Source: Protula sp. h YS-2021
Taxonomy: Eukaryota > Annelida > Polychaeta > Sabellida > Serpulidae
Reading direction: 5' to 3'
DNA: 64,000 bases
Assembly: GCA_949752745.1 (NCBI GenBank)
Contig: OX457028.1
Span: 8,388,922-8,452,921 of the forward strand
This document shows, one piece after another, positions 27,391 through 40,092 of the stretch. The position numbers and the translations under genes are program-made. Positions within the stretch are counted from its first letter, which is position 1. Each line of letters begins with the position of its first letter. The notes beneath the pieces were generated by a model. The model did no database searches. It was not told the DNA's origin and worked only from the letters and a program-made list of their open reading frames with translations.

Positions 27391-28135
27391 TTAATTAATA
27401 GACACTCTCCAGACTGCTTCTGGGTATTTCATAGAGTTTTCTAACATTTCCACTGTTTCAGAGCATGATGAAGTTTCTTTGAGGAATTGTAGGAAAATAG
27501 ATGCCCACCTTGTATCCTTCTTAGATAGCAAGGCTGCAAGCATCTTTCTCATCTGTTTATATAAAAGTGTTTTTTATTTAAATTTTCATTTTTATGATGA
27601 TTTATGCAAATAAGAATGTTGAAACATTTTCTCAACAGCAGAAGAAAGACTAAAATCATCGTAGCCTGTGGCAATCATTCATTGCTAGATTACTATGATA
27701 AATTCCTCGGATTAATCTTATACTGAAGTTAAACCAAGCCCTTTCTTTGATTTATTAAGAATTTTAACCATTCTACTCTAAGGTATTATTTTACAGGCAT
27801 TTGTTTTCAAAATACCAAAAAGTACAAGATATTGTATGTTGTTCTTTTCTCTGAAAAGAGCAGTACTCAATGCACACTTTAATATGAAATATTAAGAATT
27901 TTATTTGAGCCATGATGGAGTATGTACAAATTACAAAGAAAATGTTAAATATGATGCAAATATAATTAACATTATCTTTTTACCTTGTTTCTGTTTTCTT
28001 CTGTTTCGGTGATACGTTCGTATTCTTCGGTAGTCAAAGCTTTCATTGAAAACAAATGATCGACGTGATCATCACACTCGATGTATTTTGTGAGGTACTT
28101 TGTGTGGTAGCGAATCACCTCAACCAAAAGCTTAT
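27391..28135 (-). other. Exons 15-16: C-terminal CARD (death-fold) domain, residues about 929-1030
   Basis: Reads [58 protein letters not shown] and QFLKETSS. This matches the CARD layout: helix 2 L...L, the 'LT-x-E-EYE-x-I' turn and helix, 'N/R-x-x-x-x-ML-x-x-L' and the 'F-x-x-FL-x-x-L' end. CARDs assemble signalling filaments in inflammasome, apoptosome and RIG-I-like pathways. The domain is split by an intron in phase 0. Confidence 0.82.
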
Positions 28136-37100: not shown

Positions 37101-40092
37101 TTATTGTTATTGCTATTATTATTGTTATTATTACTATTATTATAATTGTTATTATTATTATTAGGATATTCGTGTAGTGAGCAAACTTCCGAGAGTTTTG
37201 AATATTTTTAAAGAAGCGTGTTGTTTAAAGGAAAAGATTGGCGAAATGTTAAGATATATTAAGAATCGGAATCCTGTGCGCAATCATTATGCAAACTATT
37301 AGCAACGAAACAGATAGAGAAGTGTACAAAAGGCCAATATTTCAAAACCAAGGAAAAACTACAATTTTAGAATAGCACCTCACTATCCGATAAAATCATT
37401 TGAAAAATCATTGTTTGCAAACATTAAGTTTACAACCTCTTTCATTTTCTTAACAATTTTATAAAAACGGTTAAATTATGCAAAATAATCACACATAATT
37501 TCTGAGTACTGTCGTGTAATCCCTAATTACACAGATTCCGTGAAACAAATAAATGAATTCTGATAAATTAACTCACTCTGTCAGTTGCAAGTAGTTGTCC
37601 AGAAAAGACATTAAATCTCTGTATCGTGTCTTTCTTGTGTTTATCCACGACTCAAAATTTTCAAATCTACAATCATTAAAATGCCGTTTTTATACATAAC
37701 GCTTGGCTAATATAGATTACGTTTCACGAAGTATTCTAGTAATTTACTAAAGCGTTAGACTATATAGAAAATCAGTAAAAAACAAAACATGTCTTGCATA
37801 GTTGCTAAATCTAAGCGTTGTTAATTACTTAACTTCCGCATTACAAAAGATTTGGTTTGATGGAAACAACAGATATGGATTAGGGGTTCTTACGAATGAA
37901 GCCATATGCAATAACAGGCAAACAACAAATAATATCATACCAGACGTGCAAATTGTTAACAACAATTAAGGCTTTAATTCCATAAGTAAGTCATTCACAA
38001 TTACACCAGTATAGAACACAGAGAAATTCTTTATCCTTCTTTTAGGCATAACGTTTTTTCATGATTAATATTAAATGCAATAACATTGAACGGCATCGAA
38101 AGCAACCGATGGTCTGCTTGGTACTCGACATCTAGTCTATGTGTCTCTGTACACTCTTCTTTACTGTTTGCACCTTTCCACTTGTTCAGTGTGTTGTGTT
38201 CAAACAGCAGTGTATTAGTAAACACGAATACACACTTACAACAAAGAAATGCGTCAACGGCAATTGCTTAATTAGTAATAGAATCGACACGAAAACAGCT
38301 CTACCAAAATTGCAGAAAACTAAAAACTCCCTATTGATCGTAAATTCAGTGCGCTGGAGATATTACAAAACAATGTGATAAAACATTCTGAGGTTTTGCA
38401 TTAATGGAATGAAGTTGGTACCAATTATACAAGGCTGATAACTTTGCAAAACTCGATTATAACCATATAATGAAGCAAATTTTAATTAGCAATTCGTGCT
38501 TTGGATTTTGCATTTATTCGTAACATTACTAATAAATAATTGTTATTAAAGGACAGATCTCATCACGATAAAATCTCAGATGTACCTGTCATCTTTATAT
38601 TTTGTGCCCACAGGAAGAAGTGTAGGGCCAAAGACCAAGTATTGCAGAAGTAAGGATATTTTCAGCGGAACTGGTTTAGAAAACTTTTCTTATTTTAATG
38701 TCACTCCATCTAACCTTACAGCAACGTAAGGAGTAATGAGATCACTTATTTGTTCTGACCTTGGAGCAATATAAGTAGTCATGATTTTTATTGTTTTGCT
38801 GGACGAACTGCGGTATCCATAGCTTGTACAATTTGCTATTAAGCAACAGTTCATGCAATAAAGGCGATACGTTTTCCACAACTTTGAACTTACTCAGTAT
38901 GACTTCTACTGCTTCTTGGAATTAAGCCTTTAATGCGACACTCTTCAATCGCCTTCCATTTGGCATACGTTCTGCGGTGATACTTGTAAATTCTCTGACA
39001 GTCATCCCCTATGTGAACACAAAGTAGAAGCAATGGTATAAAAGATATAAGTTATGCGACATCCTATTCATCTTAGACACGATGACTCAAACTAAAAAGG
39101 TATTAGTTATCTATTTAAAAAGGATTTTTTAATGATAAAACTACCTCTGTGAATTTCAACCAATATTCTTTCAAGAATCGCAGTTACCACATGCAACTAC
39201 TCACTGAGAGAACCAGTTGCTTTGGCGATTTTATTCCATGTAGCCTCTCGTATGCTATAATTTTGGTAATCTGCATGATACACATCGTAAATAACGTTAT
39301 GTTTCTGGACCTCTTGCATAAGCAACTCAACATCTATGAAGCTGAAAATAAAGCATCTTACACTGTTGCCTTGCAGATGTGAGTGTTATATCAGAAAGAG
39401 AGCTTTTCATAGCGTTTTACGTTCATGTAGTACAAAGAACGACAGTCTTTTAAGATGTATTTTTCTTTACATTTTAGTGTGTTTTTATAATGTTAAATAA
39501 AATGTTTTTGGTATGGGGTTATAGAGGCATGTAGAAAAGGTTGCTTCATTTGATGTTATATCAATGTTTCTTTTCTTCCAAATTGAAATGACGTTGCAAT
39601 TTTAACGTTATATAAAGGACATCAAGTCAATAGTACGAACATGAAATCGCCTTTGAAAGCTTAGAAATTTGACTGTGCGTTTCTGTGGTGCATACTGATT
39701 TGTAAATGTATGGTTATGTGGTACGTACTAATCCGTAAATGTATGCTAATGCTGTACGTACTGTTTCGTAAATGTATGCTTATGTAGTACATACTGATTC
39801 TTTCTCTTGTTAGAAAATACATTATGGAATATAAGCCTTTTATAATCATTAATCAACCAAAATTTATTTGTGATTACCTGAAGCTAAGTGCTGAAAATTA
39901 TACCAAACACGTAACAAAACATTAAGGTTGTTTTGTAATTTTTTTCTGAGATGAACTGTATTCAAATAGCGGAAAGAAAAACTCATTATGCTTTCTTTTT
40001 CAGAATTAAACGAATTTCACTTACTGGTTTGACATGGTTGGTTTTGCAGTCTTCGTCTCAGACAGCAACCTAGAACCATTTGCTTGTTGCAT
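27391..40092 (-). CDS. MADF - Rho pseudo-GTPase - coiled coil - MET-like tyrosine kinase - CARD fusion protein, 16 exons, 1032 aa
   Basis: Exons (high to low): 40092-40025, 39341-39205, 39008-38894, 37666-37577, 36832-36758, 36564-36387, 35590-35169, 34723-34086, 33647-33489, 32878-32703, 31744-31635, 31281-31119, 29687-29551, 29360-29044, 28135-27984, 27552-27391. Every intron is GT-AG and all 15 junctions keep frame; total 3099 nt with a TAA stop and no internal stop. Start: first ATG after an in-frame TAA ([10 protein letters not shown]); a second in-frame ATG lies at 40035. No signal peptide or transmembrane segment is seen, so a cytosolic or nuclear kinase is inferred. Domain details are in the five entries below. 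Known families: MADF (Myb-like, DNA/protein binding), Rac/Rho switch, receptor-type tyrosine kinase, CARD (death-fold adaptor). Alternative: two or three adjacent genes joined by me; the in-phase junctions argue against this, but transcripts would decide. Confidence 0.85.
28716..28824. repeat. (TA)n microsatellite in kinase intron 14
   Basis: About 108 bases of pure AT dinucleotide, preceded by a short AGT trinucleotide run at 28680-28715. Confidence 0.95.
30590..31075 (+). other. Antisense segment in kinase intron 12 with doubled hairpin motif and small ORF
   Basis: A block of about 65 bases containing GAGGTCACACG(T/C)(T/C)AGGTGTGA and CTAAATGG(T/C)GCAGA occurs at about 30626 and again at about 30728. 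Each copy can fold at TCACAC/GTGTGA. A TATA-like ATATAAGG lies at about 30598. A plus-strand ORF with [20 protein letters not shown] begins at 30976 and meets a GTAACT donor-like site near 31064. It could be a solo LTR or leader of a retroelement, or an antisense first exon. No family recognised. Confidence 0.35.
31946..32145. repeat. Tandem duplication, unit about 100 bases, kinase intron 10
   Basis: Two copies of TTCTGTG(G/A)TTAAATGAATTAGA...ACTTTTCTAAAAA...ACAT(A)TCTAAAAC with small differences. Confidence 0.75.
34086..34723 (-). other. Exon 8: coiled coil with three internal repeats, residues about 363-574
   Basis: One 638-base exon encodes a Glu/Lys/Gln/Leu-rich helix. Three related segments are [39 protein letters not shown] and [16 protein letters not shown]; the first two continue into LE(D/N)I(I/V)EQL. 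A Ser/Gln-rich loop separates the second and third. Such a segment would oligomerise the protein and could drive kinase trans-phosphorylation. Confidence 0.85.
35169..36564 (-). other. Exons 6-7: Rac/Rho-type GTPase domain with defective P-loop, residues about 175-360
   Basis: P-loop reads GDGACGAT (residues 181-188) where Rac/Rho have GDGAVGKT, so the invariant Lys is Ala187. Switch I keeps YVPTVFDNY. Switch II keeps [15 protein letters not shown] with the Gln at 232. The G4 motif reads CKLD (285-288) instead of TKLD; G5 reads ETSGM instead of CSAL-type. The domain ends in a Rac-like polybasic stretch (KKNKKTQR) and then runs into the coiled coil instead of a CAAX box. Loss of the P-loop Lys usually cripples nucleotide binding, so a pseudo-GTPase scaffold is inferred. 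Confidence 0.88.
36890..37165. repeat. (ATC)n then (ATT)n microsatellite in kinase intron 4
   Basis: About 190 bases of CAT/ATC trinucleotide followed by about 85 bases of ATT. The poly-Met open frame across it is an artefact. It lies next to exon 5, whose acceptor is 36833-36834. Confidence 0.95.
38894..40092 (-). other. Exons 1-3: MADF domain, residues about 23-106
   Basis: After a 22-residue leader the sequence reads [40 protein letters not shown] and [15 protein letters not shown]. This is the MADF pattern (LI-x-x-V, P/N-x-x-Y-D, DY-x-N, R-x-x-x-W-x-x-IA, then R-x-x-Y). Exons 4-5 (37666-36758) add W...[10 protein letters not shown], like the FL-containing C-terminal helix often seen after MADF. 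MADF domains usually occur in transcription regulators; finding one ahead of a GTPase is unexpected. Confidence 0.78.
39680..39804. repeat. 33-base tandem repeat, about 4 copies, kinase intron 1
   Basis: Unit GTAAATGTATG(C/G)TTATG followed by (T/G)(A/G)GTAC(G/A)TACTGATTC. Spacing of GTAAATGTATG is 33 bases. Confidence 0.8.

Follow-up and report, generated by a model that had tools for sequence, protein, structure and literature searches.

Do sixteen predicted exons in the genome of the annelid Protula sp. h YS-2021 (Serpulidae) belong to one gene and, if so, what kind of kinase would that gene encode? The exons lie on the minus strand, at 40092-27391, of a stretch of 64,000 nucleotides (assembly GCA_949752745.1, contig OX457028.1, forward-strand positions 8,388,922 to 8,452,921) that was analyzed whole and that we call the window; all coordinates refer to it. 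A first-pass annotation, made from the letters of the window, had read them as a single gene joining a MADF domain, a Rho-type GTPase, a coiled coil, a MET-like tyrosine kinase and a CARD. From the predicted sequence, we consider it slightly more likely than not that the 16 exons form a single gene whose product is an intracellular tyrosine kinase of the MET family, activated, as we predict, by CARD assembly and by a coil that brings kinases together. The best reading of the location of the predicted protein is cytosolic or nuclear.

Gene model and domain order

We rebuilt the gene model from the raw window sequence and recovered every exon where the first-pass annotation had placed it, with matching phases, GT-AG borders in 15 of 15 introns and 3099 nucleotides that give 1032 codons plus a TAA, free of internal stops. 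A poly(A)-type signal is located 112 nucleotides downstream of this TAA, and a stop is met in every case when exons 1 to 15 are read on into their introns. Met20, the second ATG in exon 1, presumably has a better start context than the first. Splice sites were ranked as percentiles of the sites in the window (donors against all its GTs) with a consensus matrix. By this measure donors fall at least at the 88th percentile, with the exception of that of exon 13 (63rd), while the weakest acceptors are those of exons 12 (35th), 6 (49th) and 15 (62nd), followed by 10 (69th) and 4 (72nd). Despite its low score, the acceptor of exon 12 is borne out by homology, with gaps in none of the 135 alignments across the junction.

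We then searched the predicted protein with Pfam profiles at their curated cut-offs. MADF matched at residues 30-93 with 28.8 bits (cut-off 22, E 1.6e-6, profile positions 1-65 of 84) and is the weakest of the four domains found; Ras matched at 176-346 with 117.7 bits (cut-off 21.6), PK_Tyr at 592-848 with 303.9 bits (cut-off 23.1) and CARD at 935-1006 with 42.1 bits (cut-off 23.9). The profile search that had been proposed as a check on the MADF and CARD domains places both above their cut-offs, and the rebuilt model together with Pfam upholds the order MADF, Rho-type GTPase, coil, tyrosine kinase and CARD. A search of the PDB for a solved relative of the MADF domain gave nothing better than E 0.41. 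The MADF region (residues 24-106) has an isoelectric point of 9.4, a basic value that is at most compatible with DNA binding. The nearest solved CARD is that of MDA5 (E 2.3e-5), matched at 132-197 of the MDA5 chain, which we take to be its second CARD; such a likeness would fit an immune role without proving one.

The coiled coil, which had been drawn as spanning residues 363-574, was scored with a home-made heptad score and its significance was estimated by shuffles. The scores support a coil at about 392-480, and two further stretches, near 506-530 and near 542-570, are shorter and weaker; a single continuous coil over 363-574 was rejected on these scores. Exon 8 also contains internal repeats. 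The pairs 388-440/441-490 and 441-490/539-576 gave scores reached by none of 1000 shuffles, the other four of the six pairs gave no signal, with scores that 60 to 780 of 1000 shuffles attained, and the joint alignment of the four pieces was poor.

In order to find relatives, we ran one protein search with the first 500 residues (of 7989 candidates scored, 404 passed and 120 were listed) and one with the kinase-to-CARD part (6537 of 7976 passed, 120 listed). Scoring was limited to the candidates with most words in common, and proteins with lengths outside 0.55-1.75 times that of the query were never candidates, so an orthologue that is fragmentary or has diverged could be absent from the matches listed. 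With the CARD alone, 0 of 53 candidates reached E 0.01 or better. According to their Pfam column, none of the 240 relatives listed carries MADF (PF10545) or CARD (PF00619), and none has the same layout, in agreement with the initial remark that no described protein is known to have it. Nor did we meet this layout in the literature searched, most of it judged by title and the start of the abstract, and the parts of PMC2575513 and PMC8998645 that were available to us describe none. Matches to Ras and to a tyrosine-kinase-type domain share one chain in five of the 240 (P0004 and P0010-P0013), none of them with a MADF or CARD match. Four (P0010-P0013, of which P0010 and P0013 are from fungi) resemble our protein in joining a Rho-type domain to a kinase, but there the kinase precedes Rho. 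P0004 has Ras ahead of the kinase, and that order is therefore not unique to this gene, although the kinase of P0004 is preceded by three Ras domains, Sel1 and SH3.

The MET-type kinase and the Rho-like domain

The kinase is 48-54% identical to the MET-type rows of our kinase tree. For this tree we chose 24 of the 240 fetched proteins; 22 of them contributed rows, and several of these have two or more kinase matches. The resulting 33 rows include no TAM or RIP kinase. The query and 12 MET/RON-type rows form a clade with a support of 100/99, with the query outside the other 12 and a weak inner branch (81/65). MET heads the PDB entries that have one matched stretch, with about 298 bits, followed by RON (269), TYRO3 (243), and then AXL and MER; one EGFR entry ranks above MET at 330.9 bits, with two matched stretches. 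Clade and ranking bear out the MET-like assignment. A RIP or TAM kinase was rejected because the PDB ranking and the tree, which has neither TAM nor RIP rows, favour MET/RON. The glycine loop, the catalytic Lys624, the helix-C Glu642, HRD, DFG and the Tyr746/Tyr747 pair are all present, and the set of motifs expected of an active tyrosine kinase (glycine loop, VAIK Lys, helix-C Glu, HRD and DFG) is complete.

The rest of the protein is not that of a MET/RON receptor. No Sema, PSI or IPT ectodomain was matched by Pfam in the predicted protein, and it has no membrane-like stretch, its maximum 19-residue hydropathy being 1.7, whereas three MET-type receptors reach 3.0 to 3.3; the ectodomain and transmembrane helix that define the whole receptor are thus missing from the model. 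The kinase shares with these receptors its clade and the activation-loop tyrosine pair, and its 10-residue pre-kinase segment resembles that of a Paralvinella MET-type receptor, but here a coil, a GTPase domain and MADF stand in front of the kinase and a CARD stands behind it. Neither does the protein classify as a CARD-kinase of the RIPK2 type, which has a RIP-family kinase, since its kinase is MET-type, as judged with no RIP kinase placed in the tree.

The GTPase domain combines its Ras profile match with a Rho-type sequence, about 45-56% identical to Rho, Rac and Cdc42 proteins (20 chosen of the 240 fetched), and its best PDB matches are Rho1, Rac and RhoA/B/C chains. Among these 20 proteins its branch is long (1.02 versus a median of 0.043) and its placement between Rho and Rac is unsettled. 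The P-loop motif is GxxxxGK[ST], and its lysine contacts the phosphates. Here the P-loop reads GDGACGAT, with Ala187 at the position where all 118 alignments that reach it, from 136 alignments to the fetched relatives, have Lys. The GCC codon of Ala187 differs from both Lys codons at three of three bases, which rules out a single sequencing error as its cause. Switch I Thr206, DTAGQ, the base-recognition residues K286/D288 and S329 are intact. Cys285 is common to 23 of the 136 alignments, and Gly330, a second and milder change, replaces an Ala seen in 124 of them. Moreover, the chain does not stop at the position of the prenylation motif that ends a Rho protein.

Without the P-loop lysine of a functional switch, and with a chain that extends beyond the prenylation-motif position, the domain does not behave in sequence as the small GTPase switch of the first-pass annotation, and a fully ordinary Rho switch was rejected. 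It is probably not a switch at all; Rho pseudoGTPase would be the better name, with both switch regions retained, and we infer that it binds no nucleotide. Loss of the G1 lysine falls within the definition of a pseudoGTPase given in the part of PMC5593906 available to us. As described there, the pseudoGTPase domains of p190RhoGAP and others are likewise GTPase folds that miss a required G-motif element inside a larger signalling protein, but the motifs of p190RhoGAP pG1 are substantially degraded, whereas here the P-loop Lys is clearly lost and the switch regions are Rho-like. Separately, the exon 7 donor (35169-35165, minus strand) holds an in-frame TAA, and the 11-residue end produced by reading through it resembles a Rho tail without the prenylation cysteine. 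This end is perhaps a trace of an old GTPase terminus that predates the fusion.

One gene or several

For each junction, we counted gaps near it in the alignments to relatives that span it. Junctions within the GTPase and kinase are mostly ungapped: 1 of 132 spanning alignments is gapped at residue 221, 7 of 133 at 627, 15 of 134 at 686, none of 135 at both 722 and 777, and none of 134 at 822. The other 9 of the 15 junctions, all inter-domain ones among them, have little or no homology support. No alignment spans those at residues 22 (the first), 68 (in MADF), 928 (kinase-to-CARD) and 979 (in CARD), and few span those at 107 (1 alignment), 137 (3), 162 (6, of which 3 gapped), 362 (18, 5 gapped) and 574 (12, 2 gapped). 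Reading back from exons 6, 8 and 9 to the stop that precedes each of them, one meets no in-frame ATG, and the first Met of exon 6 comes after the P-loop, while that of exon 8 is Met412, in the middle of the coil. As an in-frame ATG is absent ahead of the P-loop and ahead of Met412, exons 6 and 8 are unlikely gene starts, and the MADF-to-GTPase and GTPase-to-coil links are therefore the better supported ones. We found no tandem paralogue in the window, where matches elsewhere have E 0.98 or worse. A long (TA)n run lies at about 28820-28720, within intron 14, between the kinase and CARD exons.

Several observations weigh against the preferred reading. The gene was joined from genomic sequence alone, and an orthologue was not found among the 240 relatives listed. 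Its weakest junction is that of kinase to CARD, with an in-frame ATG upstream at 28148, an acceptor at the 62nd percentile and no spanning relative. An alternative kinase start is possible at Met591, just ahead of the glycine loop. Of 300 shuffles, 7 reached the maximum heptad score of exon 8, which is a modest result, and with this home-made score the kinase windows 677-683 attain 11.5, more than the weaker stretches of the coil. The pseudoGTPase call depends mostly on a single position, Ala187. Finally, in the part of PMC12751062 available to us, TPR dimerisation had only a slight positive effect on MET kinase activity when measured in a coupled assay, and increased autophosphorylation about 1.8-fold in another assay.

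These observations leave room for four other explanations. The least unlikely keeps the fused gene but lets its GTPase still bind nucleotide and gate the kinase as a switch, as its intact Thr206, DTAGQ, K286/D288 and S329 and the other proteins in which a Rho-type domain and a kinase share a chain would allow; the invariant lysine at the position of Ala187 and the long branch argue against it. That two adjacent genes are present, one for MADF, pseudoGTPase, coil and kinase and the other for a short CARD-only protein from exons 15-16, is also unlikely. The ATG at 28148 directly upstream of exon 15, the middling acceptor of this exon, the unspanned junction, and a read-through of exon 14 that stops after nine codons, with AATAAA at 29033 and 28499, would all suit such a division, but AATAAA is frequent (76 on the minus strand of the window), the exon 14 donor is the strongest of the gene (99.9th percentile) and the phases are compatible.

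A break after the GTPase, with a MADF-GTPase gene whose product stops within the exon 7 donor and a separate coil-kinase-CARD gene, or with isoforms, is quite improbable. It draws on the immediate stop upon exon 7 read-through, on AATAAA downstream at 35060, 35022 and 34882, and on a shorter kinase form that could begin at Met412 or Met591; it has to contend with an exon 8 that offers no in-frame ATG before Met412, within the coil, with a read-through end that has no prenylation cysteine, and with a donor and an acceptor at the 94th and 99.6th percentiles. We give least credit, and very little, to a recent fusion now in decay or not expressed: transposon pieces flank the gene on both sides and no orthologue appears among the listed matches, but the 16 exons are intact, with no frameshifts or stops, and the catalytic residues are retained. 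The exons of the preferred single gene are listed below.

Table. Exons of the predicted gene, in order of transcription (window coordinates)
Feature	Coordinates	Strand	Content
Exon 1	40025..40092	minus	Start ATG at 40092, in-frame stop just upstream
Exon 2	39205..39341	minus	MADF domain part 1
Exon 3	38894..39008	minus	MADF domain part 2
Exon 4	37577..37666	minus	Acidic linker
Exon 5	36758..36832	minus	Linker
Exon 6	36387..36564	minus	Rho-type GTPase part 1: P-loop GDGACGAT, Ala187 (GCC, 36491-36489), switch I PTVFDNY intact
Exon 7	35169..35590	minus	GTPase part 2: switch II DTAGQ intact, GCKLD, polybasic KKNKK
Exon 8	34086..34723	minus	Discontinuous coiled coil, diverged internal repeats (388-440, 441-490, 539-576)
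Exon 9	33489..33647	minus	Kinase N-lobe: short pre-kinase segment, glycine loop, catalytic Lys624
Exon 10	32703..32878	minus	Kinase, helix C with Glu642
Exon 11	31635..31744	minus	Kinase, catalytic loop HRDLAARN
Exon 12	31119..31281	minus	Kinase: DFG (734), activation-loop Tyr746/Tyr747, MAPE
Exon 13	29551..29687	minus	Kinase C-lobe
Exon 14	29044..29360	minus	Kinase end and acidic tail: Tyr 866, 869, 884, 900, 907; KRKRK (873)
Exon 15	27984..28135	minus	CARD part 1; in-frame ATG at 28148 upstream of acceptor
Exon 16	27391..27552	minus	CARD part 2, TAA stop

Elsewhere in the window, two overlapping open reading frames at 75-2161 (minus strand) encode ankyrin repeats (Ank_2, 99.5 bits) and then a 258-residue product without a Pfam match. 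The NCBIfam and PADLOC matches of the former are ankyrin ones, those of NCBIfam far below the cut-off. The latter has a GS...E-D pattern like that of cGAS/Mab21 enzymes, and its sole PDB match, at E 0.43, is to cGAS-like receptor 1, which is a lead only. At about 11300-21300, on both strands, the four reading frames scanned gave Adeno_IVa2 (26.3 bits, cut-off 21), DNA_pol_B_2 (24.6 bits, just below the cut-off of 25.8) and two without a match; these pieces resemble a Maverick/Polinton-like element, and similar ones were seen by eye at about 46700-47700. Broken reverse transcriptase frames of the long interspersed nuclear element (LINE) type are located at 48505-49890 (minus strand) and 3688-5529 (plus strand), of which 49204-49890 matches RVT_1 with 102 bits and the rest was judged by eye. 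Finally, a carboxylesterase-family gene at 61248-62732 (minus strand) consists of three overlapping reading frames that each match COesterase, and is possibly intron-split or broken.

Predicted mechanism and its meaning

In the single predicted protein, the C-terminal CARD would join a CARD assembly and the coil would pair kinase domains, turning the kinase on. In such clusters, paired kinases would trans-phosphorylate Tyr746/Tyr747, and SH2 or PTB adaptors could then be recruited by the tyrosine-rich tail (866-907). The Rho-like domain, with no GTP cycling, may offer Rho partners a fixed surface to dock on, by way of switch regions that are still intact. The basic MADF and the KRKRK of the tail might provide a tether to DNA, to chromatin or to a MADF partner. 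RIPK2 consists of a RIP-family kinase followed by a C-terminal CARD, and has no coil, GTPase or MADF. The proposed logic would be RIPK2-like in its kinase and C-terminal CARD, with a receptor-free kinase of another family, as in TPR-MET.

In TPR-MET and other coil-MET cancer fusions, a coiled coil stands directly ahead of the MET kinase and the receptor part is gone, as in our protein, and in these fusions the coil activates the kinase according to the part of PMC11054789 available to us. Here, by contrast, the gene is predicted to be germline and has three extra domains; besides, the published fusion retains MET from D1010 (PMC12751062, part of the text), whereas here MET-like sequence begins only just before the kinase. 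Given the small effect of TPR dimerisation described in the accessible part of that work, coil pairing alone may not suffice, and we take the CARD, able to concentrate many kinases, as the likely main trigger.

The protein may oligomerise through coil and CARD, and may have an immune role. There are precedents elsewhere, none of which is evidence for this gene: in the portions of these papers available to us, a MADF protein of a fish promotes resistance to pathogens and both binds and regulates the locus that encodes it (PMC11893794), the RIG-I-like receptors of lophotrochozoans show grafting of domains around CARDs (PMC8998645), and amphioxus has new combinations of immune domains (PMC2575513).

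A more specific reading by analogy makes the protein a nucleic-acid-sensing tyrosine kinase, in which MADF would bind foreign or exposed DNA, coil and CARD would polymerise on this DNA, tyrosine phosphorylation by the receptor-free MET kinase would be the output and the dead Rho domain would capture Rho partners there. Polymerisation on DNA is known from AIM2-like sensors; we regard this reading as quite improbable, on a par with a break after the GTPase.

If the transcript of the proposed MET-family kinase gene is real, evolution would have built into a single germline gene a MET kinase that is fused to a coil and free of its receptor, an arrangement otherwise met as a lesion in cancer. It would also wire a MET-type kinase to a death-fold adaptor, Rho and MADF, and so link growth-factor tyrosine signalling directly to CARD assemblies. 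Such a gene would offer a natural system for the control of a dimerised MET kinase and for the role of a Rho domain without nucleotide.

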